NCBI GenBank assembly: GCA_016806715.1 | Contig: CP060531.1 | Span: 1,845,966-1,909,965, forward strand | Reading direction: 5' to 3' | From: Thermoplasmatales archaeon | GTDB lineage: Archaea > Thermoplasmatota > Thermoplasmata > Thermoplasmatales > Thermoplasmataceae | Length of the DNA stretch: 64,000 nucleotides | In this document: positions 6,752 through 28,701 of the stretch, in pieces | How positions within the stretch are numbered: the first letter of the stretch is position 1 | Layout: each line of letters begins with the position of its first letter | Position numbers and translations under genes: made by a program | The notes under the pieces: generated by a model | Told to the model about the DNA's origin: nothing | Database searches by the model: none | Seen by the model: only the letters and a program-made list of their open reading frames with translations

Positions 6752-7177
6752 ATGGAAGAGCCTATAAGCGCAGAGCATAGTGAGTTAATGACCCTACTAT
6801 ACACCGCTGAACAGGAAAGTCATGACAATTCCGGGGTAATCAAAGAAGTTGCAAGTGTTTTTTCAGGACACGCGGACAGGGAAGAAGAAACACTGGTTCC
6901 AGTTCTGGGATTCATGAAAGAGTGGTTTTCCGGAAGTAAACAAGTCGATGTCTCTTTTTTGAAAGCAAAAGCTAACGAATTTAGGTTAGAAGTCGGTACA
7001 ATGATCAATGAGCATGCCCAGATTCTGAAACTTTTTGATGAAATGAGTACCGGGGGCGAAAAAGATGCCTGCTTATTGAGCAATCTCAGAAAATTTATGA
7101 AGAGACATTCAGTTATTGAGGAATATTATTTCTATCCAATGGCCACGTACGCATGCAAGATAATTGATGGACTGTGA
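6752..7177 (+). CDS. Hemerythrin-like (HHE) domain protein
   Basis: 141 residues, one four-helix hemerythrin-like domain. Candidate iron ligands are all present and spaced as in the family: His9, His40-x3-Glu44, His88, His119-x3-Glu123. It closely matches the protein at 27554 (shared pattern '..EEETLVPVLGFMKEW'). Such proteins bind O2 or NO at a di-iron centre or serve iron-sulfur repair and sensing. It sits immediately upstream of the nitrate reductase operon in the same direction, 170 bp before the next gene, with its own TATA box. A nitric-oxide role is inferred from context. Confidence 0.75.
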   Translation: MEEPISAEHSELMTLLYTAEQESHDNSGVIKEVASVFSGHADREEETLVPVLGFMKEWFSGSKQVDVSFLKAKANEFRLEVGTMINEHAQILKLFDEMSTGGEKDACLLSNLRKFMKRHSVIEEYYFYPMATYACKIIDGL

Positions 7178-7608: not shown

Positions 7609-10600
7609 TTGGACAAACTTGAAGAAAAGGTAGCGTCGGGCAAAAAAATGCCCGGAAGAAACAGATGGATAGAATATTCTCAGGTGTCCAGAAACTGGGA
7701 GGATATGTATCGTTCTCGCTGGGATCACACCAATGTCGTACGCTCGACACATGGTGTTAACTGCACCGGATCCTGCAGCTGGCAGGTTTATGTTAAGGAC
7801 GGGATAATTACCTGGGAAACGCAGCAGACTGACTACCCCTCGCTGGGCCCCGACTATCCGGAGTATGAACCAAGGGGGTGCCCGAGAGGAGCAACTTTCT
7901 CTTGGTATACGTACAGCCCCATGAGAGTAAAATATCCATACGTGAGGGGAGCTTTACTTAAGATCTGGAGAGATCTCTTAAGCAAGCATAAATCTCCCGT
8001 AGAAGCTTGGGCAGAGATATCATCCAATAAAGAGTACAGGGAAAGTTATGTCAGGGCTAGAGGTAAAGGGGGGTTAGTCAGGGCAACATGGGAAGAGGTA
8101 TCCGATATGATTGCCTCTGCCTTGATTCACACAATCAAGACCTATGGGCCTGATAGAATAGAAGGCTTTACTCCTATTCCAGCAATGTCAATGATTAGCT
8201 ATTCTGCTGGGTCTAGATTTTTTTCTCTTATTGGAGCCAGCATGCTGAGTTTTTATGACTGGTTTGCAGATCTGCCACCTGCATCCCCACAAATTTGGGG
8301 GGAGCAAACAGACGTGCCGGAAAGTGCTGATTGGTACAATGCTAAGTATTTTATCATCTGGGGCACGAACCTGCCGATGACTAGAACACCAGATGCACAC
8401 TTCATGGTAGAGGCAAGATATAACGGCACAAAGGTAGTGGGCATCAGCCCGGATTACGCAGAATACATTAAATTCAGTGACATATGGCTCCCCGCGAAGG
8501 CTGGTACTGACGCTGCTCTGGCTCTCTCAATGGCACATGTTATAGTCAAAGAATTCTATGTGGACAGGGAAGAAAAATATTTTGTAGACTATGCCAAGAA
8601 ATATACAGATCTGCCTTTCCTTGTGATTCTCAGGAAGGACGGGGATTCATACAGGTCGGATAGATTCTTGCGTGCTGATGATCTAGGAAGTAAGGAAAAG
8701 TTCTCTGAATGGAAAACCTTGGTCTGGGATTCTATTACCAATAGACCCTGCATCCCTCAAGGAACCATAGGTTTCAGATGGGATGATGCCGGGAAGTGGA
8801 ATCTCAATCCTATTGACACGGATGGGAAAAAGTTTGATCCGATTTATACATTCGTGAAAGATTATGATACAGCGGTGTCTGTAACTTTTCCCCTTTTCAG
8901 TGCAGATGGCAGCGCAGTCGTTAAAAGGAAAGTGCCGGCCAAGAAGATCAAGACTGCAAAATCCACGGAGACACTGGTAACAACCGTTTTCGATCTGTTT
9001 GCATCAAGTCTTGGGGTATCCCGGAATCTACCCGGCGAATCATCTTCGAGTTACGATGACGACGAAGCTTACACCCCGGGGTGGCAGGAGAAGATTACAG
9101 GCGTGGATAGGAAACTCTCCATCCAGGTCGCCAGAGAGTTCGCTGAAAATGCTGCTAAGACTAAGGGCAAATCGATGATCGCAATGGGTGCCGGAACAAA
9201 CCACTGGTATAACAGTGACGTGATCTACAGGAGCATAATCAGTCTCGTTATGCTTACGGGATGCCAGGGCGTAAATGGTGGAGGATGGGCACATTATGTT
9301 GGGCAGGAGAAAGTACGGCCTTTTGAAGGCTGGAGCAACCTTGCATTTGCGATGGACTGGTACCCGGCGTCAAGGCTGCAGAGTGGCACGTCTTTCTTCT
9401 ATATGGTTTCAGACCAGTTCAGGTTTGAACAGGCACCGAGCGTTTCTAACCTGACTCCATTTCCTGGTAAGTATTCCGGGCAACACCCCCTCGACCTTTT
9501 TGCCCTTGCGGTCAGAATGGGTTGGCAGCCTAGTTATCCTCAGTTAAACCGGAATCCCATTGAAATCGCTAAAGACGCCCGGAATGCCGGCTGCAAGACT
9601 GACGAGGAAGTAGCGCGCTATGTTTCCGGGCAGGTTCACGAAGGAAAGATCAGGTTTTCTGTGGAGGACCCGGATAACCCGGCAAATTTCCCGAGGGTTT
9701 TTTTCCAGTGGAGATCAAACATCCTTGGTTCAAATGGCAAGGGACATGAGTACTTTCTCAAATACCTTCTCGGGGCGAACGGGCATCCTCTCGGCAATCT
9801 GGATGAGAGTTGGAAACCGGAAGGGATTGATTTGCCGGAGAGCATCCCGGAAGGGAAGCTTGACCTTCTGGTCGATCTCGATTTTCGAATGACAAGCTCT
9901 GCACTTTATTCTGATATAGTGCTCCCGGCCGCAACATGGTATGAAAAACATGACATTAGCAGCACTGATATGCATCCATTTGTGCATCCTTTTAATCCTG
10001 CAATCTCTCCTCCATGGGAAACAAAGAGTGACTGGGGGATCTTTAAGATTATTGCTAAGAGGTTTTCGGAAATCGCATCCGACGAACTTCCCGACGCAGA
10101 AGATTTGATGATGACTGCCTTACAGCATGATTCACCCGATGAGTTAGCCCAACCCTACGGTAAGATCGATGACTGGCTGGAAAAGAAAACAGAACCGGTC
10201 CCTGGAAGGAACTTCCCTAAGATTAGCGTAGTTAAGAGAGAATATTCATTGACATACGAGAAAATGGTTACACTGGGTCCTCTGGAAAAAAAGAGGATTG
10301 CTGCCAAGGGAGTTGTGATAGATGGCACAAACGCTTATGAGGAGATATCGAAAAAAGTTCCCGTTTCCAAGTTGCCGGGTGTAGGAAAAGGGAAACCATC
10401 GCTCTCAGAGGAGATTGACGTTGCAAACGTGATTCTAGCTCTTTCCGGAGCGACAAACGGTAAAAGGGCCTCCGAGGAGTGGGACTTCCTGGCAAAGAAA
10501 ACAGGACTTGACATCTCGAAGACGTTTTCCTCCACTTGGGATACGGATTACACTTTTCACGATCTGACTGTGCAACCAAGACGAGCGATTGCGACCCCGG

Positions 10601-11283
10601 TGTGGAGCGGATCCGAAATTGATGGTCGACTATATTCTCCTTTTACGACCAATATTGAACTCAATATCCCTTGGAGAACATTGACTGGAAGACAATCCTT
10701 CTATCTGGACCACGAGATAATGCTTGAAATGGGTGAAGGACTCCCAGTGCACAAACCTCCACTCGGTCTTCCTGCGTTTACAAACAATAATGAGGGCGAA
10801 AAACTCGCAACGGGCAAACATATCACAGTTAACTATCTCACTCCTCACCAGAAATGGGGGATACATTCAACTTATGCAGATACTCCTACGATGCTCACTC
10901 TTTTCAGGGGAGGGCAATATGTCTGGATCAATGAGGATGACGCCAAGGAGATCGATGTGAAAGACAATGACTGGATAGAAGTCTATAACATGAATGGAAC
11001 TGTAGTCGCGAGATCAGTACTGAGTTACAGGATTCCCAGGGGCGTGGCCATGATGTATCATGGGCAGGACAGGACAGTGGGCGTACCTGGAAGCGAGATT
11101 ACAAAGGATAGAGGGGGCACGAATAATAGCGTTACTAGGGTGATCCTGAAGCCTACCCATATGATAGGTGGTTATGGGCAACTGTCTTTCTTCTTCAACT
11201 ATTATGGCCCGACCGGGCATCAGAGAGATTCTGTTGCCTTCATAAGAAAAGTGGATAAGGAGGTGAACTGGCTTGAGAGTTAA
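7609..11283 (+). CDS. narG: Nitrate reductase alpha subunit (molybdopterin enzyme)
   Basis: 1224 residues, like bacterial NarG. It reduces nitrate to nitrite at a Mo-bis-MGD centre using electrons from NarH. Signature residues: FS0 cluster ligands His48, Cys52, Cys56 and Cys91 in 'THGVNC..SC' and 'PRGCPRG', and the Mo ligand Asp221 in 'DWFADLPPASP'. These are offset by about one from the Escherichia coli protein. The N-terminus has 'SRNWEDMYRSRW', like the cytoplasmic bacterial enzyme, and no twin-arginine signal, unlike the exported haloarchaeal type. TTG start at 7609, 7 nt after the preceding stop; the 3' end overlaps narH by 11 nt. Confidence 0.97.
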   Translation: MDKLEEKVASGKKMPGRNRWIEYSQVSRNWEDMYRSRWDHTNVVRSTHGVNCTGSCSWQVYVKDGIITWETQQTDYPSLGPDYPEYEPRGCPRGATFSWYTYSPMRVKYPYVRGALLKIWRDLLSKHKSPVEAWAEISSNKEYRESYVRARGKGGLVRATWEEVSDMIASALIHTIKTYGPDRIEGFTPIPAMSMISYSAGSRFFSLIGASMLSFYDWFADLPPASPQIWGEQTDVPESADWYNAKYFIIWGTNLPMTRTPDAHFMVEARYNGTKVVGISPDYAEYIKFSDIWLPAKAGTDAALALSMAHVIVKEFYVDREEKYFVDYAKKYTDLPFLVILRKDGDSYRSDRFLRADDLGSKEKFSEWKTLVWDSITNRPCIPQGTIGFRWDDAGKWNLNPIDTDGKKFDPIYTFVKDYDTAVSVTFPLFSADGSAVVKRKVPAKKIKTAKSTETLVTTVFDLFASSLGVSRNLPGESSSSYDDDEAYTPGWQEKITGVDRKLSIQVAREFAENAAKTKGKSMIAMGAGTNHWYNSDVIYRSIISLVMLTGCQGVNGGGWAHYVGQEKVRPFEGWSNLAFAMDWYPASRLQSGTSFFYMVSDQFRFEQAPSVSNLTPFPGKYSGQHPLDLFALAVRMGWQPSYPQLNRNPIEIAKDARNAGCKTDEEVARYVSGQVHEGKIRFSVEDPDNPANFPRVFFQWRSNILGSNGKGHEYFLKYLLGANGHPLGNLDESWKPEGIDLPESIPEGKLDLLVDLDFRMTSSALYSDIVLPAATWYEKHDISSTDMHPFVHPFNPAISPPWETKSDWGIFKIIAKRFSEIASDELPDAEDLMMTALQHDSPDELAQPYGKIDDWLEKKTEPVPGRNFPKISVVKREYSLTYEKMVTLGPLEKKRIAAKGVVIDGTNAYEEISKKVPVSKLPGVGKGKPSLSEEIDVANVILALSGATNGKRASEEWDFLAKKTGLDISKTFSSTWDTDYTFHDLTVQPRRAIATPVWSGSEIDGRLYSPFTTNIELNIPWRTLTGRQSFYLDHEIMLEMGEGLPVHKPPLGLPAFTNNNEGEKLATGKHITVNYLTPHQKWGIHSTYADTPTMLTLFRGGQYVWINEDDAKEIDVKDNDWIEVYNMNGTVVARSVLSYRIPRGVAMMYHGQDRTVGVPGSEITKDRGGTNNSVTRVILKPTHMIGGYGQLSFFFNYYGPTGHQRDSVAFIRKVDKEVNWLES

Positions 11284-12754
11284 AGCACAGATTGCAATGG
11301 TTATGAACCTCGACAAATGCATTGGATGTCATACATGCAGTGTAACTTGCAAGAACGTCTGGACAAACAGGCCCGGAACTGAATACATGTGGTTCAACAA
11401 TGTGGAAACAAGGCCTGGTCCCGGATATCCCACCAAGTGGGAAGATCAGGATAGATATAAAGGAGGATGGGTTGTGCACAATGGGAAGTTGCGCCTTAGA
11501 TCCGGAGGTCCCATGCAGAGGCTGCTTAACATTTTCTATAACCCTGATCTACCGCTATTAGATGATTATTACGAACCGTGGAATTACTCGTACGAGAACC
11601 TAATAGAAAGTGACAGGAAGGAGCATCAGCCCGTTGCTAGGCCCTATTCCTTAGTGACTGGGAAAAACATTGAAAAACCTTCGTGGGGACCTAACTGGAA
11701 CGATGATCTGGCTGGTGGGAGCGCTACCTCCTCGATGGACCCAAATGTCAGGGCGATTCAGGAACATATAGCATATGAGTACGAGAAGTCATTTATGATA
11801 TATCTCCCGAGAATCTGTGAACATTGCCTGAATCCGGCATGCGTTGCCGCCTGTCCAGCAGGCGCTATATACAAGAGAGACGAGGATGGGATAGTTCTTG
11901 TGGATCAGGAATCATGCAGAGGATGGCGATTCTGTGTTACTGCCTGTCCCTATAAGAAGGTTTATTTCAACTGGAAAACCCATAAATCGGAAAAATGTAC
12001 GTTCTGCTACCCGAGGATTGAAGCAGGGCTCCCGACTGTCTGTTCCGAGACCTGTGTTGGAAGAATCAGGTATCTGGGGCCAATCCTTTATGATTCCGAC
12101 AGAATTAAAGAAGCCGCGTCAGTAGAGAATCCAAAGAACCTATATGAATCCCAGCTCTCGGTGTTTCTTGACCCATTCGACCCGGAAGTGATAGCTAATG
12201 CAAGCAAGGAAGGAATCAACGATGCATGGATCAAGGCAGCCCAGGATTCTCCGGTGTACAAGATGGCGGTTAAATGGAAAGTTGCCCTTCCACTGCACCC
12301 GGAGTTCAGAACACTTCCCATGGTGTGGTATGTCCCACCTCTGAGCCCTATTCTCAACACGGTGGAAGGTGAATCTGAGATTTCCGCGAATTCATACATA
12401 CCGCTTGTAGATTCGATGCGCATACCTATAGAGTATCTATCATCAATTCTAACCGCTGGCAACGTGGAAATAACCAGGAGCGCACTTCTGAAGTTGAGTG
12501 CAATGAGGGCGTACATGAGATCAATTCATCTCGAAAGTGAAGGAAATAATCTCCTCCTGAAAGAGACAGGAATGACAAGCGACGATGTTATCGAGATGTC
12601 AAGGCTTTTTGGGGTATCGAAGTACAATGAACGCTTCGTAATACCGACTGCCATGAGGGAGATGGAACAAGATGCGTCCTATCTTCAGGGTGCATGCAGC
12701 CTGGAGGGAATCGCACCCGAGGAAGGTATGCCCAGGCCAAAACAAAGAAGGTGA
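11273..12754 (+). CDS. narH: Nitrate reductase beta subunit (iron-sulfur)
   Basis: 493 residues; electron-transfer subunit with four Fe-S clusters between NarI and NarG. First ferredoxin motif Cys16-x2-Cys19-x2-Cys22-x3-Cys26; then 'CEHCLNPACVAACP'; then 'CRGWRFCVTACPYKK', where Trp replaces a Cys as in the 3Fe-4S cluster of bacterial NarH; then 'CTFCYPRIEAG..CSETC'. TTG start lies inside the end of narG, implying translational coupling. The overall match to the bacterial protein is very close, suggesting transfer of the operon from bacteria or deep conservation. Confidence 0.97.
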   Translation: MRVKAQIAMVMNLDKCIGCHTCSVTCKNVWTNRPGTEYMWFNNVETRPGPGYPTKWEDQDRYKGGWVVHNGKLRLRSGGPMQRLLNIFYNPDLPLLDDYYEPWNYSYENLIESDRKEHQPVARPYSLVTGKNIEKPSWGPNWNDDLAGGSATSSMDPNVRAIQEHIAYEYEKSFMIYLPRICEHCLNPACVAACPAGAIYKRDEDGIVLVDQESCRGWRFCVTACPYKKVYFNWKTHKSEKCTFCYPRIEAGLPTVCSETCVGRIRYLGPILYDSDRIKEAASVENPKNLYESQLSVFLDPFDPEVIANASKEGINDAWIKAAQDSPVYKMAVKWKVALPLHPEFRTLPMVWYVPPLSPILNTVEGESEISANSYIPLVDSMRIPIEYLSSILTAGNVEITRSALLKLSAMRAYMRSIHLESEGNNLLLKETGMTSDDVIEMSRLFGVSKYNERFVIPTAMREMEQDASYLQGACSLEGIAPEEGMPRPKQRR

Positions 12755-12757
12755 TAA

Positions 12758-13345
12758 TTGGTGAACAGTGAAAGAGTCTCGAGAATGCTAAGAACATACT
12801 CCTTGATACTCGATTATCCGGTTTATGAAGGAGTAAGTGACTTCATAGAGCAGGTAAGATCTGTCATGCCGCAGGGAGAAGAGGCAGCTGAAGCATTCCT
12901 TGACGCGTTGGCCTGCATGAACATCGTTGATGTGCAGAAAGAGTACGTTGAAAGCTTTGACATGAATTCATCAGCACCGCTTTATCTGACTGCCTGGGAA
13001 CTTGGTGACAGCAGGAACAGGGGGAACGCCCTGATCGATATCAAAAAACTCATAGCTTCTTACAAGTTTTCGATCGTTAAACAGGAGCTCCCGGATTATA
13101 TCCCGTTGATCCTTGAATTCCTATCCGAGATTCCCTACGATGAATGGCCTCCGGCACTCGAAACACGCCTGCAGGCATATTTTAGCGGCATCGTGGGGAA
13201 AGTTGGATCAAGATTGTACAGTAGCGTTATCGAGGCCCTTGGAAGCAAATTCCGAAAGAGGGAAGATTTGCCTGTACATGAACCAGTAAGGGCCGATACC
13301 GGAGAGATGCCATTCCCTGTTAGGTACGATGGAAGTGATTACTGA
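12758..13345 (+). CDS. narJ: Nitrate reductase assembly chaperone NarJ
   Basis: 195 residues, a TorD/NarJ-family all-helical chaperone needed to insert the Mo cofactor into NarG before membrane attachment. 'RMLRTYSLILDYPVYEG' at the N-terminus and 'SAPLYLTAWELGDSRNRG' (about 70-87) match the family's 'YL..HLFGD...RG' signature. It starts with GTG 3 nt after narH, and its stop overlaps the narI start (TGATG). It is cytoplasmic and not part of the final enzyme. Confidence 0.9.
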   Translation: MVNSERVSRMLRTYSLILDYPVYEGVSDFIEQVRSVMPQGEEAAEAFLDALACMNIVDVQKEYVESFDMNSSAPLYLTAWELGDSRNRGNALIDIKKLIASYKFSIVKQELPDYIPLILEFLSEIPYDEWPPALETRLQAYFSGIVGKVGSRLYSSVIEALGSKFRKREDLPVHEPVRADTGEMPFPVRYDGSDY

Positions 13346-14085
13346 TGAATTTTATTGAGGAACAGTTGGCCTGGGTGATTTACCCTTATCTTTCGTTTGC
13401 GATAATGATAATAGGAGTAATTTACAGGTTTCGAACCAATCAATTAAGTGTAACATCCAAATCGAGCGAACTTCTAGAAAACAAAAGTCTGGGATGGGGG
13501 GCAAGGCTTTTTCATTGGGGTCTGATTTTTGTTATTCTCGGGCACTTTGCAGGGCTGTTTGTTCCGGTATCGTTTCTTAACCGCTTTGGAGTCTCAGATT
13601 ATGAGAACTTCCTTGCATCTGTGATCTTGGGTGGTGTATTCGGTCTTGTCGCAGTATCCGGACTGGGAATTCTTATTACAAGACGCCTGATAATCAGGAG
13701 GGTAAGATTAAATTCAAGTTTTGGTGATACGTTTGTCCTTATTCTTCTTCTGATCATAATGGCGTTAGGGCTCACCCTTCCATTGGGGTACGATCCAATT
13801 AACGGCTCTGCAGGATATACCGCTGTGATGGCAAATATAACTCCATGGATTAGTGGATTTTTTACCTTCCAGCCTAATGCTTCTCTTATGAACGGCGTTC
13901 CTCTCCTGTTTCAGATACATATCCTGTTGTCATTCCTGCTTTATCCCGCAATACCGTTCACAAGACTTATGCATATATTCACAACACCGATTCGATATAT
14001 CGTAAGGAAACCTATAGTTTATCGCCGCCTGGAGAAGCCAGAAGCAAATTTTGACTCGAAAGTAGGCGATGTTAAATGGAGATAA
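13345..14085 (+). CDS. narI: Nitrate reductase gamma subunit (cytochrome b)
   Basis: 246 residues with five hydrophobic segments. The four predicted heme-b ligands are His57 ('LFHWG'), His67 ('LGHFAG'), His192 ('FQIHIL') and His210 ('RLMHIF'), nearly the same positions as in E. coli NarI. It oxidises quinol and passes electrons inward to NarH, anchoring the complex in the membrane. ATG overlaps the narJ stop by one base; the 3' end overlaps the transporter gene by 17 nt, so the operon continues. Confidence 0.95.
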   Translation: MNFIEEQLAWVIYPYLSFAIMIIGVIYRFRTNQLSVTSKSSELLENKSLGWGARLFHWGLIFVILGHFAGLFVPVSFLNRFGVSDYENFLASVILGGVFGLVAVSGLGILITRRLIIRRVRLNSSFGDTFVLILLLIIMALGLTLPLGYDPINGSAGYTAVMANITPWISGFFTFQPNASLMNGVPLLFQIHILLSFLLYPAIPFTRLMHIFTTPIRYIVRKPIVYRRLEKPEANFDSKVGDVKWR

Positions 14086-15184
14086 GACAAGTGTGACTCC
14101 GTTCAGATCGAAATTCGACGCAGTTGCACGTGATCTGCTACCGGGGTACTTTGCCTTGGTAATGGCAACAGGCATCGTATCTATCGCGCTTCATATATAC
14201 AATTTTCTTGTTTTCTCGGATTTTTTATTCTATTTCAATGTTCTCGCATTTGCAGGTCTCTGGGTAATAAGCGGATATCGAATCGTATTTCACTCTGACA
14301 GGTATCTATCTGACATCAGGGATCACGCAAGAGGACCCGGGTTCTTTACCGTGATAGCGGGCACAAATACCCTGGCTTCGGATTTCCTGATAGTAGGGCA
14401 TAATGAACCAATAGCCTTTATTCTTTGGATTCTTGGCTTCGCCCTGTGGGCGATATTCCAATACGGGGTGTTTACTGCACTGATGTTATCTGATCACAAA
14501 CCAACGCTGGATAAGGCAATCAACGGTACATGGCTGGTGGCTGTTGTTTCCACCCAGTCGCTTTCAGTCGTGGCTGCGCAGTTGACAGTTTATCACTCTT
14601 GGATGTTCCTCATTTCAATCATCATGTATTTCATTGGTTGGTTTACGTACATAATGATAATGTCACTAGTAAATTACAGGCTCCTGTTCTTTGAGCTGAA
14701 AGCAGAAAGTATAACCGGTCCTTACTGGATTAATATGGGGGCTACTGCAATCACGACTCTGGCCGGAGCTCTCATACTGCTTGCTGCTAAGACACCGGCA
14801 ATAATTTCGCAATTTCCGATAAATGAATCAATAATGCCATTTATTGTTGGAGCGACATTCTTGATATGGGCATATGGTAGCTGGTGGATACCCTGGCTTC
14901 TGATAATCGGCATCTGGAAACACACGATCGGAAAAGTAAGCCCGTGGAGATACGATGCACAGTTCTGGGGTGCGGTTTTTCCAATGGGGATGTACACTGT
15001 TTCAACATACATGTTTGTCAGGGCAACAAATCTTGGGCAGCTTTTGATAATCCCGAATTTCTTTATCTACTTTGCAATAGCGGGCTGGATATACGAATTC
15101 GTTGAGTTTCTGTATGCGATGATATCCGGGATATTAAAACCGGATAAAAATGGGTTAAAAAAGAGGGATTTTATTGAGCAATAG
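14069..15184 (+). CDS. TDT/SLAC1-TehA family anion channel or transporter
   Basis: 371 residues with about ten transmembrane helices. The opening 'LPGYFALVMATGIVSIA' and later 'GTWLVAVVSTQSLSVV' match the tellurite-resistance/dicarboxylate transporter family, which includes bacterial TehA and the plant channel SLAC1 that conducts nitrate and chloride. Overlap with narI places it in the nar operon, where no NarK-type transporter is seen, so import of nitrate or export of nitrite is the natural guess. Substrate cannot be read from sequence. The basic C-terminal tail is cytoplasmic. Confidence 0.85.
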   Translation: MLNGDKTSVTPFRSKFDAVARDLLPGYFALVMATGIVSIALHIYNFLVFSDFLFYFNVLAFAGLWVISGYRIVFHSDRYLSDIRDHARGPGFFTVIAGTNTLASDFLIVGHNEPIAFILWILGFALWAIFQYGVFTALMLSDHKPTLDKAINGTWLVAVVSTQSLSVVAAQLTVYHSWMFLISIIMYFIGWFTYIMIMSLVNYRLLFFELKAESITGPYWINMGATAITTLAGALILLAAKTPAIISQFPINESIMPFIVGATFLIWAYGSWWIPWLLIIGIWKHTIGKVSPWRYDAQFWGAVFPMGMYTVSTYMFVRATNLGQLLIIPNFFIYFAIAGWIYEFVEFLYAMISGILKPDKNGLKKRDFIEQ

Positions 15185-15208: not shown

Positions 15209-15610
15209 ATGTCCGGCCCGGCTCTAAGGAATCAGGATAGCCATCACGCCATTCACGAAGCAAATGCAGGAGAGATACAGGAGGCTATGTCAATGCTTAC
15301 AGGCATGGGCGACAAAGACACAAAAACTGTTTCGGAAATACGTCAGGCGTTGCTCGATTTATGGGAGGAAAAGGTTATGGCACATGCCATGGAAGAAGAG
15401 AAAGGGCTGTATCGTGATATATTGAACAGTAGGCCGGAAACAAAAGAGACTCTTGTTCGTCTCTCACGGGATCATCAGCTTCTCGGACTATTACTCGAAA
15501 AAGCCAAGACTCAGTTGCGTGTTCAGTCCGCCGAGGAATTCATTGCCATAAATAGAGCCATGCTGCTTCTGCTGGAAATACATTCAGACGAGGAGGAAAA
15601 AATTCTGTAG
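15209..15610 (+). CDS. Hemerythrin-like (HHE) domain protein, last gene of nar operon
   Basis: 133 residues. Ligand pattern complete: His12/13 or His16, His59-x3-Glu63, His89, His125-x3-Glu129 at the very C-terminus. Starts with ATG 24 nt after the transporter stop, with a GGAGG ribosome-binding site just upstream, so it is probably co-transcribed with narGHJI. This sequence is more divergent from the other hemerythrin-like proteins here than they are from each other. Likely handles NO or O2 while nitrate is respired (inference). Confidence 0.75.
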   Translation: MSGPALRNQDSHHAIHEANAGEIQEAMSMLTGMGDKDTKTVSEIRQALLDLWEEKVMAHAMEEEKGLYRDILNSRPETKETLVRLSRDHQLLGLLLEKAKTQLRVQSAEEFIAINRAMLLLLEIHSDEEEKIL

Positions 15611-16146: not shown

Positions 16147-17358
16147 ATGAATTCCTATACTCACAGCAACGAGAGAAAACAGTCAGGCCCAGTGCCTATA
16201 GTTTACGTCGGTATTGGGTTTTCTGTTATTTCACTTGCTCTTGGCATAATAATAGGTATTTCTGCACTGGCAGAAAACAATGGCTTTTCCCTGAATAACG
16301 GGATCGCGGCTGATATCACTTTTCATCCTGATCTGATGGTGTTCGGAGTCATAGGAGGCCTCTTGATCACCGAGAAACTGGAACTAATGGAGAAATTCAG
16401 TTTATTCGGGTATTTCAGGATATCGCGAATGATAGTCTCATTACTGTTTTCTGGTGTGTTCATTTCATCGGCAGGAATATGGCTGCAGATTTCGGCCATG
16501 CAGGATCTCGGGCTTCTGCTTGTGGCGGCAGCATCCATTCTCTTTTTGTATTACATGACTAGCCGGAGAAATCCAGGTATGGCATATGTCAAGCATGTTT
16601 CAGGCGCTGCAATTCTAGGCATGTTTCTATCGGCTATCGCTAACCTTAACCAGTTCATAACAGAGAGTAATGAGCTTACATACCTTGTCTTGTTATTTCC
16701 GGTTGTATATGTTCTCGCTGAGAGAATGGAACTTGGCTATATAAGAGGAATGAAAGTCTCTTTTATAAGGACACAATCCATACTTTCCTGGATTCTCGTG
16801 ATCACGGCATTCTTGTCAGTGGAGATAAATGTTGGTCCATTTCCGCGCCTCCTTATGTTGACATCCATTGCCATCCTTATTTTCCTTGTTGTTGGTTCCG
16901 TATACTTCGATCCTTCATTCAGGCACTTGATAAAGAAAAATCGTCTGCAGTCCTACATACAAAAAGGGATAGTTATTTCTTATCTGTGGTTGTTTTTAGG
17001 CATTATATTATTTATAATGCAGGCAATCCTCGGTCATGGCTTCCTGGATCCAGCAGCACATTCTATTGCACTTGGATTCATAGGTACTTTTATTGTAGCA
17101 CACAGCCCAATAATATTTCCTCTTACCCTGAAGAAGAAAGCTGTGCAGGAGAACGTTACTCTTCTACCAATTATTATAATAACAGTTGCGAACTTCATGA
17201 GAATTTTCGGAGATATTTCCTTACATTATCTCTGGATATCTGCTGCTATTTCTTATGCATCGGCGTATGTTTTACTGGTTGCAATCATTGCCTTTGTCTA
17301 CAATCTGAGGAGAATCATGTACATAGGTGCGCCCAAGAATTCAGTGGAGGTAGGATGA
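16147..17358 (+). CDS. Polytopic membrane protein, NnrS-like candidate
   Basis: 403 residues with roughly twelve hydrophobic segments. 'TFHPDLMVFGVIGGLL' (His60) and, near 305-330, 'AHSIALGFIGTFIVAHSP' resemble the His-containing membrane segments of NnrS, a heme-copper membrane protein linked to nitric-oxide and nitrosative stress in denitrifiers. The position just after the nar operon and before a DUF2249-cupin gene supports that reading. Similarity is by motif only; another heme-binding or transporter family is possible. ATG start; the next gene begins 55 nt after the stop. Confidence 0.5.
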   Translation: MNSYTHSNERKQSGPVPIVYVGIGFSVISLALGIIIGISALAENNGFSLNNGIAADITFHPDLMVFGVIGGLLITEKLELMEKFSLFGYFRISRMIVSLLFSGVFISSAGIWLQISAMQDLGLLLVAAASILFLYYMTSRRNPGMAYVKHVSGAAILGMFLSAIANLNQFITESNELTYLVLLFPVVYVLAERMELGYIRGMKVSFIRTQSILSWILVITAFLSVEINVGPFPRLLMLTSIAILIFLVVGSVYFDPSFRHLIKKNRLQSYIQKGIVISYLWLFLGIILFIMQAILGHGFLDPAAHSIALGFIGTFIVAHSPIIFPLTLKKKAVQENVTLLPIIIITVANFMRIFGDISLHYLWISAAISYASAYVLLVAIIAFVYNLRRIMYIGAPKNSVEVG

Positions 17359-17413: not shown

Positions 17414-18040
17414 ATGTTAGATAAGAAAGAAAATGTGAAGGTAGTTGATGCAATGAAGTTTCCACCAGAAGTTAGACAAAGTAAAATCCTGGAGGAATTT
17501 CTTTCAATAAAGCCTGGAGAGGTGCTGGAGATTATTGCTCCTCATGATCCTGAACACCTGCTTCGGCACATGGCTCATGAAGGGCTTCCAGTGGACATGG
17601 GTGCATATTATTCCCAAGCAAATCCAGACGGTACTCATTCAGGTTTTTTCAAGAAACTGAAAAACGCCGAGGAAAGAATCAAGATCACAAGCTTTGAAGA
17701 TGAAAGCGTTTTTTCTGAGAAACAGTTCAATCCTGTAGGTATATACTCAGGAAACAACTACAAAGTAATTCTTGCGTACATAAAGGCAGGGCAGTTTATT
17801 CCCGTTCATTCTCCAGGTACAGATCTTATATTTTCTGTGTACAAGGGAACAGGCGTTGGAGTATTCGGTGACAAGGAAGTGTCATTAAAGCCGGGAAGCG
17901 TTATAATAGTTCCTGGTGGTGAAAAGAGGGGAATCAGGGCAACTACTGATATGGAAGGCTTACACATTGTGTCGCCAATCCCAGATGAAAAAGATCACAT
18001 GGAAGTAGTCCGCAAGCTGGCCGTAAACGAGTTTCAGTGA
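17414..18040 (+). CDS. DUF2249-cupin fusion protein
   Basis: 208 residues in two parts. Residues about 30-95 resemble DUF2249 ('KPGEVLEIIAPHDPEHLLRHM'), a small TusA-like domain found with hemerythrins and denitrification genes. Residues about 115-200 form a single cupin barrel ('PVHSPGTDLIFSVYKGTG', 'LKPGSVIIVPGG'). Only one clear cupin metal-ligand His is visible, so metal binding is uncertain. Likely cytoplasmic sensor or small-molecule binder. It follows the NnrS-like gene in the same direction and ends at a strong hairpin. Confidence 0.65.
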   Translation: MLDKKENVKVVDAMKFPPEVRQSKILEEFLSIKPGEVLEIIAPHDPEHLLRHMAHEGLPVDMGAYYSQANPDGTHSGFFKKLKNAEERIKITSFEDESVFSEKQFNPVGIYSGNNYKVILAYIKAGQFIPVHSPGTDLIFSVYKGTGVGVFGDKEVSLKPGSVIIVPGGEKRGIRATTDMEGLHIVSPIPDEKDHMEVVRKLAVNEFQ

Positions 18041-27553: not shown

Positions 27554-28021
27554 ATGACAGATGAAAAAAATATGCTGGATGAGGAACACGAAGAGTTGAT
27601 AGAGGCACTGGGAGAAGTAGCACGCGAAAAAACCGAGGTTGGAAGATTATTTTCTGAAGTCCTGGGAATTTTCAGGACACACCTCAACAGGGAAAATGAG
27701 ACCATAATCCCTTTGCTTGGATACCTCAAGGACAGGCTTGGCGGGTACGATGCAGATGGCAAAGAGGCGCTTAACATTGCACGAATGAAATTCGAGGATA
27801 GCTACCCCGAAATGATACAGGAACATGAAGACATGGCCAAACTTATCAGGTCTGCCCAGGAACTACTGAAGAACACCCCTGATAGACTAGCGTCAGACCT
27901 GGCCGGACATCTGCTCCACCATGTAGAGCTGGAAGAGGAGTTACTCTACCCTGCAGCTTTTGCATCTGGAGATCTAGTGGAATACGAACTGGAGCTCCCC
28001 GGTGAGAAAATCAAGCAATGA
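27554..28021 (+). CDS. Hemerythrin-like (HHE) domain protein
   Basis: 155 residues, the best-preserved copy in the window. Ligands: His12, His43-x3-Glu47, His91, and His119/122/123 with Glu127, giving the complete pattern of the family. 'LNRENETIIPLLGYLKDRLGG' is shared with the copies at 10 and 6752. ATG start with a CTATAAAG box about 37 nt upstream, so the transcript has a very short leader. It converges on the HTH_10 regulator gene. Confidence 0.78.
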   Translation: MTDEKNMLDEEHEELIEALGEVAREKTEVGRLFSEVLGIFRTHLNRENETIIPLLGYLKDRLGGYDADGKEALNIARMKFEDSYPEMIQEHEDMAKLIRSAQELLKNTPDRLASDLAGHLLHHVELEEELLYPAAFASGDLVEYELELPGEKIKQ

Positions 28022-28068: not shown

Positions 28069-28701
28069 TTATTCATCTCTTTTCTTGAAATATGATGATA
28101 TTATGTGTTTCTCGGCACGCCTAAGTATCTCAGCTAGTGTTACATAGGAAACATTAAGCCTCTTTGACAGGCCCTCAAGATTGACTTTCTTGGGATAATC
28201 AAAGAAACCAAGTTCAAGAGCTGTCTTCACCACTAACTCCTGCCTAGATGTAATATCACTCCTTTTGGAGAGGGCACGTTTCTTGAGCAGTTCGAACTTC
28301 ACACCATCTTCCTCAAGCCTCTTAAGAAATCCACTGACGGTTGCTTCATCTGGCACTAGCCATTTCATGATTATGTCACCAGAGTTGTCGGAGTAAGCTT
28401 CTGTGAGGAACAGATCCCAATTCAGGATTGATCTGCATATTGCACACTCATGCGCATTGACAATAGCAGTCGCATGAGTGTCATCCACGATTGTCACGTT
28501 ATTCTTTTCAGCTTTCTTTCCGTTTAGAAACTCTGAAGAAAATCCCTCGATCTTTCCGTAAGGCATGAAAATTTCAAAAAGGTCCTTCACCGTTTCACCG
28601 CTCATCCTGATGTCCCTGATCTTGATGCTTGCGGAATGTGTTTCCACTAAGTCTTTAATCCAGGCTACCGGTTCCTTGAATTTTATCTCAACTTCCATCA
28701 A
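28069..28701 (-). CDS. HTH_10 (bacterio-opsin activator type) transcription regulator
   Basis: 210 residues. The C-terminal 55 form the archaeal HTH_10 domain: 'TSRQELVVKTALELGFFDYP' then 'LSKRLNVSYVTLAEILRRAEKHI'. The N-terminal ~140 residues are a sensor-like domain holding 'NAHECAICRSIL' with Cys86-x2-Cys89 next to His84, which could bind metal, a cluster or NO-reactive thiols. Likely DNA-binding regulator of nearby genes such as the hemerythrins or nar operon (inference from position). ATG start. Confidence 0.85.
   Translation of the reverse strand: MMEVEIKFKEPVAWIKDLVETHSASIKIRDIRMSGETVKDLFEIFMPYGKIEGFSSEFLNGKKAEKNNVTIVDDTHATAIVNAHECAICRSILNWDLFLTEAYSDNSGDIIMKWLVPDEATVSGFLKRLEEDGVKFELLKKRALSKRSDITSRQELVVKTALELGFFDYPKKVNLEGLSKRLNVSYVTLAEILRRAEKHIISSYFKKRDE

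Follow-up and report, generated by a model that had tools for sequence, protein, structure and literature searches.

A SLAC1/TDT-family protein encoded behind narI as a candidate nitrate/nitrite permease of nar operons in Thermoplasmata and other phyla

A SLAC1-family gene at the end of a Thermoplasmata nar operon

The window (the whole stretch of 64,000 nucleotides analysed here) belongs to a genome of the class Thermoplasmata that is assembled as one contig (1.96 Mb, 97% complete). It carries a nitrate reductase gene cluster in which narG, narH, narJ and narI (bases 7609-14085) all exceed the curated NCBIfam cut-offs. The genes of this cluster and those that follow it are:

7609..11283, + strand: narG, nitrate reductase alpha subunit (TIGR01580, 1710 bits), without a Tat signal before the Fe-S core (N-terminus inspected)
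11273..12754, + strand: narH, beta subunit (TIGR01660, 793 bits)
12758..13345, + strand: narJ, assembly chaperone (TIGR00684, 78.9 bits; cut-off 59.35)
13345..14085, + strand: narI, gamma subunit, membrane cytochrome b (TIGR00351, 168 bits; cut-off 105.6; PF02665)
14069..15184, + strand: predicted SLAC1/TDT-family anion permease, 371 aa, ATG start (PF03595, AlphaFold2 model, Foldseek, nar linkage)
15209..15610, + strand: hemerythrin-domain protein (PF01814), beside the TDT gene in 4 of 4 Thermoplasmata nar loci
16147..17358, + strand: NnrS-like membrane protein (NO-related family), possible accessory (PF05940, E 4e-5, under the curated cut-off)
17414..18040, + strand: DUF2249 and cupin protein, possible accessory (PF10006, PF07883)

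The sequence-only reading of this DNA had described a 17-nt overlap of the TDT gene with narI and a hemerythrin gene after it. Both hold: the overlap lies at the 3' end of narI, and the hemerythrin gene follows 24 nt beyond the TDT gene. The encoded protein matches the SLAC1 profile PF03595 over nearly its full length (positions 4-328 of 331; E 9.6e-41, 140 bits against a cut-off of 27.9), and it falls short of the TIGR00816 'tdt' model (62.8 bits; cut-off 237.25).

Several other gene families recur around nar clusters. At least three separate hemerythrin-domain genes surround the cluster in the window (6752-7177, 15209-15610 and 27554-28021) and several are found at locus L019, which suggests NO or O2 handling. 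NnrS-like proteins, below the Pfam cut-off, and DUF2249-cupin proteins accompany nar in Thermoplasmata and Nitrososphaeria; homologues of the former lie near nar at L017, L018 and L026, and homologues of the latter at L017 and L026. In addition, every archaeal nar locus that was read in detail has close by a gene whose product combines an HTH_10 domain with a C-x-x-C motif; this gene may encode a nar regulator resembling the haloarchaeal HTH_10 activators. The positions of these genes are:

HTH_10/C-x-x-C gene: window 28069-28701 (- strand); L017:4601-5236; L018:3555-4187; L019:2481-3116; L026:2765-3415
NnrS-like and DUF2249-cupin homologues outside the window: L017:16162-17271; L017:14028-14681; L026:13790-16429

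Predicted fold and pore residues

AlphaFold2 was run on six nar-linked homologues. The model of the TDT protein (pLDDT 77, pTM 0.81) has ten long helices arranged in the TehA/SLAC1 fold. When it was compared with the PDB using Foldseek, the first 22 places were all taken by TehA, SLAC1 or SLAH structures, with a probability of 1.00 and TM-scores of 0.57-0.65 by query length. A profile built from 27 homologues matched Haemophilus influenzae TehA (3m71) at 7e-20, and a phmmer search of the PDB with the single window protein returned no match at E <= 1. Together, the PF03595 match and the modelled fold bear out the SLAC1/TDT identity first proposed from the sequence.

Modelling against TehA and SLAC1 also recovered the pore gate. 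Residue F304 of the window protein aligns with the TehA pore-gate residue F262 in TM9, and this phenylalanine is invariant among the 49 sequences compared (34 nar-linked and 15 other TDTs). Nar-linked TDTs of the main clade share a second, inner phenylalanine (F92), which is not conserved in the divergent clade. Mutating the gate phenylalanine opens the conductance of both TehA and SLAC1, and plant SLAC1 and SLAH3 conduct nitrate (PMC3509319). In yeast Mae1 the equivalent phenylalanine is essential (PMC6765260).

The fold and the TM9 pore phenylalanine F262 of TehA (H. influenzae, PDB 3M71; E. coli) are thus common to the window protein, but E. coli TehA is only ~16% identical to it and tehA neighbours tehB rather than nar. 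In the window protein, G263 of TehA corresponds to P305, and the subfamily motifs GPYWINMGATAITTLAG and VFPMGMY are present. Plant SLAC1 and SLAH3 likewise share the fold and the gate phenylalanine, with 11-14% identity in structural alignments; unlike SLAC1, the window protein has no long cytosolic N-terminal regulatory domain.

An inward-facing nitrate reductase and the transporters of its genome

NarGHI enzymes whose NarG lacks a Tat signal have their active site in the cytoplasm. In E. coli, NarK imports nitrate and exports nitrite, and most bacteria carry it in the nar operon. We found no Tat motif near the Fe-S core of NarG in the window or, where the N-terminus was intact, in the linked operons; the few RR motifs seen in NarG ORFs lie far upstream, in over-extended ORF starts. 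With NarGHI, the chaperone NarJ and a NarG without a Tat signal, the window enzyme is of the inward-facing (nNar) type. Its active site is therefore expected in the cytoplasm, so that nitrate must be imported and nitrite exported. NarK and NarU (NNP family, MFS), the usual nitrate/nitrite transporters of nar, hold the operon place and the expected task that we consider here for the TDT protein. The folds are unrelated, however: NarK and NarU have a 12-helix MFS fold and the TDT protein has the 10-helix SLAC1/TDT fold.

The genome was searched for transporters of the NarK, FNT and NrtB types. The best score against the NarK model TIGR00886 was 35.7 bits (cut-off 311.7), which is the level of generic MFS proteins, and the window TDT was not among the matches. 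Because the nar-linked NarK-type proteins of our survey score 116-276 bits on the same model, a similar NarK-type gene would not have escaped this search. No FNT protein (PF01226) matched at E <= 10, and the best NrtB score was 35.6 bits against a cut-off of 209. The absence of a visible NarK-type transporter, noted from the sequence alone, therefore extends to the entire genome, and the search for a dedicated nitrate transporter elsewhere yielded no NarK, FNT or NrtB protein above the cut-offs.

The same genome encodes a second SLAC1 paralogue (genome positions 1293578-1294543; L002/L020). We rejected it as a nar-related copy, as it has 18% identity and lies away from nar in another neighbourhood.

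The linkage recurs in three phyla

Only 4 of 400 Thermoplasmata genomes encode narH, all from one family, and all four have the order narGHJI-TDT-hemerythrin. The TDT gene overlaps narI by 4-17 nt in these loci, and their outer flanks differ. Further surveys found narH in 5 of 300 Nitrososphaeria, 25 of 400 Chloroflexota, and 29 of 396 and 10 of 177 genomes of two Chloroflexota classes, these sets of genomes partly overlapping. A TDT gene follows narI on the same strand in 4/4 narH-positive Thermoplasmata, 4/5 Nitrososphaeria and many Chloroflexota, so the survey of narI neighbours that had been suggested from the sequence reveals a recurrent association. The arrangement of nar with TDT was observed in 34 operons across three phyla, a repetition that argues against chance linkage. 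The linked gene is downstream of the operon and on the same strand in 33 of the 34, with spacing that ranges from the 17 nt overlap to ~2.2 kb.

A pattern scan with the most conserved TDT peptides against 84,980 prokaryotic species retrieved five close relatives, every one of which adjoins nar: two of the Thermoplasmata, two Nitrososphaeria (narGHJI-TDT) and one member of the Anaerolineales (TDT-narGHJ). Separately, a nar cluster in the Chloroflexota genome G709 (L085, 5579-11473), which has a hemerythrin gene upstream, encodes a NarH 69% identical to that of the window. This likeness between the protein sequences suggests horizontal transfer between Thermoplasmata and Chloroflexota.

TDT and NarK-type genes alternate

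Nar operons were scored with profiles, counting genes within 3 kb, and 51 operons had at least 3 kb of sequence past the end of narI. Of these, 31 have TDT only, 13 have a NarK-type gene only, one has both and six have neither (Fisher p = 6.8e-7, kinship ignored). Counted over whole genomes, for the first 34 that encode nar, any NarK-type gene was present in 2 of 21 with a linked TDT and in 10 of the 13 others (p = 1e-4). The place that TDT takes in some nar operons is thus taken by a NarK-type gene in others, and the two hardly ever coexist. The genome G672 has a TDT and a NarK-type gene both within 3 kb of one operon. In the Nitrososphaeria genome G402 (L075, 5134-10663), a NarK-type gene lies ~4 kb from narI and ~3 kb past the nar-linked TDT gene, with a transposase-like ORF between them.

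Since related genomes are not independent, a kinship-corrected test was used. The NarH tree requires TDT to have been gained or lost at nar at least eight times and contains eight independent pairs that differ in TDT; NarK differs in the opposite sense in about four of these and in the same sense in none (sign test p ~0.125). The alternation keeps its direction after phylogenetic correction, but is not significant in this sample.

Relatives within and outside nar operons

Most nar-linked TDT proteins fall in one clade together with a few plasmid relatives, apart from the TehA-like paralogues. A distant lineage (G537/G677, 24-26% identity) is likewise placed behind narI, which points to recurrent recruitment of TDT, although the deep joins of the tree are unsure because of long branches.

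TDT relatives are encoded in seventeen plasmid records; in the records viewed, no relative belongs to a narGHJI operon. Two proteobacterial plasmid nar loci that were viewed have an annotated nitrate/nitrite transporter or MFS transporter instead of TDT. Haloarchaeal plasmid relatives (38% identity) adjoin a membrane molybdenum enzyme with cytochrome b561 and sulfite-oxidase-type Oxidored_molyb domains. The uncharacterised molybdopterin oxidoreductase genes beside haloarchaeal TDT are:

L105:6394-7926, a cytochrome b561-Oxidored_molyb fusion
L106:6316-7851, a cytochrome b561-Oxidored_molyb fusion
L222:1816-3351

On two Halobaculum plasmids the TDT relative is beside nirK and near a gene for a cbb3-type oxidase subunit I (L215:4377-6842; L220:3375-7449). 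The latter possibly encodes an NO reductase, and a nitrite-related role of the TDT relative is possible in these haloarchaea. Some haloarchaeal plasmid relatives adjoin FNT genes, and a Methylocystis relative adjoins hcp and an Rrf2 regulator. Judged from gene content, these neighbourhoods are consistent with a subfamily of anion permeases that is associated chiefly with nitrogen oxides and of which some members may take sulfite. Given the relatives beside enzymes other than Nar, such as the sulfite-oxidase-type molybdenum enzyme, the substrates of the subfamily may exceed nitrate and nitrite.

Proposed role and alternative explanations

We consider it likely that the TDT protein is the nitrate/nitrite permease of its nar operon and a non-homologous substitute for NarK, with substrate, direction and mode (channel or carrier) assigned by genomic inference. 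Nitrate would enter the cytoplasm, and nitrite would leave it, via a permease of the SLAC1/TDT fold that is dedicated to Nar. As Nar would convert nitrate to nitrite 1:1 at the inner face of the membrane, a facilitative pathway would tend toward an exchange of nitrate inward for nitrite outward that is near electroneutral overall. In acidophiles the membrane potential is usually inside-positive, and the class of the organism, Thermoplasmata, suggests that it is acidophilic. An inside-positive potential in acidophilic Thermoplasmata would allow an anion channel to draw nitrate in electrophoretically as well. Several points count against the permease role. In neutrophiles, whose membrane potential is inside-negative, uptake of nitrate would be opposed if the protein were a pure channel. 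Some nar operons have neither TDT nor NarK, one (G672) has both, and G402 has a NarK-type gene not far from its nar-linked TDT. The alternation loses significance after phylogenetic correction, and relatives outside nar adjoin other enzymes.

As an alternative, the TDT protein could let nitrite out in one direction only, as a valve protecting the cytoplasm, with nitrate entering by a separate route. Plant SLAC1-type proteins and yeast Mae1 act largely in efflux (PMC6765260; PMC3509319), an anion channel favours efflux at an inside-negative potential, and the hemerythrin, NnrS-like and DUF2249 neighbours are of a type associated with NO or nitrosative stress. Yet the NarK, FNT and NrtB searches found no other nitrate importer in the genome through which nitrate could enter, and NarK is replaced by TDT rather than supplemented by it, so that we regard a pure efflux valve as unlikely.

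It is also improbable that the protein carries some other anion, such as sulfite, a dicarboxylate or a chloride counter-ion, and owes its place in the operon to redox or pH balance. The SLAC1/TDT family does take in Ssu1 (sulfite) and Mae1 (malate) (PMC6765260), and the haloarchaeal relatives beside the cytochrome b561 and Oxidored_molyb enzyme would suit a sulfite substrate. Against this stand the almost complete mutual substitution of TDT and NarK in nar operons, the nirK- and hcp-linked relatives, which point to nitrogen oxides, and the grouping of most nar-linked TDTs in a clade separate from the TehA-like paralogues.

The spread of a single ancestral narGHJI-TDT cassette by horizontal transfer, with no functional coupling, would agree with the one clade that holds most nar-linked TDTs, the relation of the window NarH to that of Chloroflexota and the small number of independent pairs, but is highly improbable given that TDT stays directly behind narI, often overlapping it, in spite of divergence in the TDT sequence and in the outer flanks, that TDT changes state at least eight times on the NarH tree, and that the distant G537/G677 lineage is found at narI too.

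The preferred role, that of a permease serving Nar, agrees with the sequence-only reading, which had offered the channel as the nitrate-uptake or nitrite-release route of an archaeal nitrate reductase. As a genomic inference this reading is supported, through the recurrence of the linkage, the alternation with NarK, the lack of a Tat signal and the pore phenylalanine. The narI-TDT arrangement is not a peculiarly archaeal solution, because this operon belongs to the inward-facing type and is closely related to bacterial ones.

Relation to known transporters and significance

In the genome description of Nitrobacter NHB1 (PMC12815253), a TDT protein is listed as a nitrite/nitrate transporter. 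It belongs to the same family as the window protein and has the same proposed substrates, the assignment being a genome annotation. According to that description it is found alongside NarK and works in nitrite oxidation, unlike the window TDT, to which we liken it by family and not by sequence. Among open-licence papers we found no report of TDT in narGHJI operons or of an alternation between NarK and TDT, and we count the proposed role of the narI-linked TDT as new because this literature offered nothing beyond the Nitrobacter remark. The SLAC1/TDT family and its fold are therefore known, and what is new is this fold in a role usually filled by an unrelated transporter.

More tentatively, and with somewhat less than even confidence, we suggest that SLAC1-type channels form a second, so far overlooked class of respiratory nitrate/nitrite permease that has replaced NarK in several archaeal and bacterial phyla, and that in acidophilic archaea with an inside-positive potential a simple gated anion channel suffices, no protons being spent. 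Many archaeal and Chloroflexota nar operons seem to be without NarK, a gap that a SLAC1-type permease in the same slot would fill. If this is true, the nitrogen cycle would offer a testable role for a family that is large and bears the loose name 'tellurite resistance/C4-dicarboxylate transporter', and plants would not be the only organisms whose SLAC1-fold proteins transport nitrate. Nitrate respiration could then also be better predicted from metagenomes, where NarK is the usual transporter marker.
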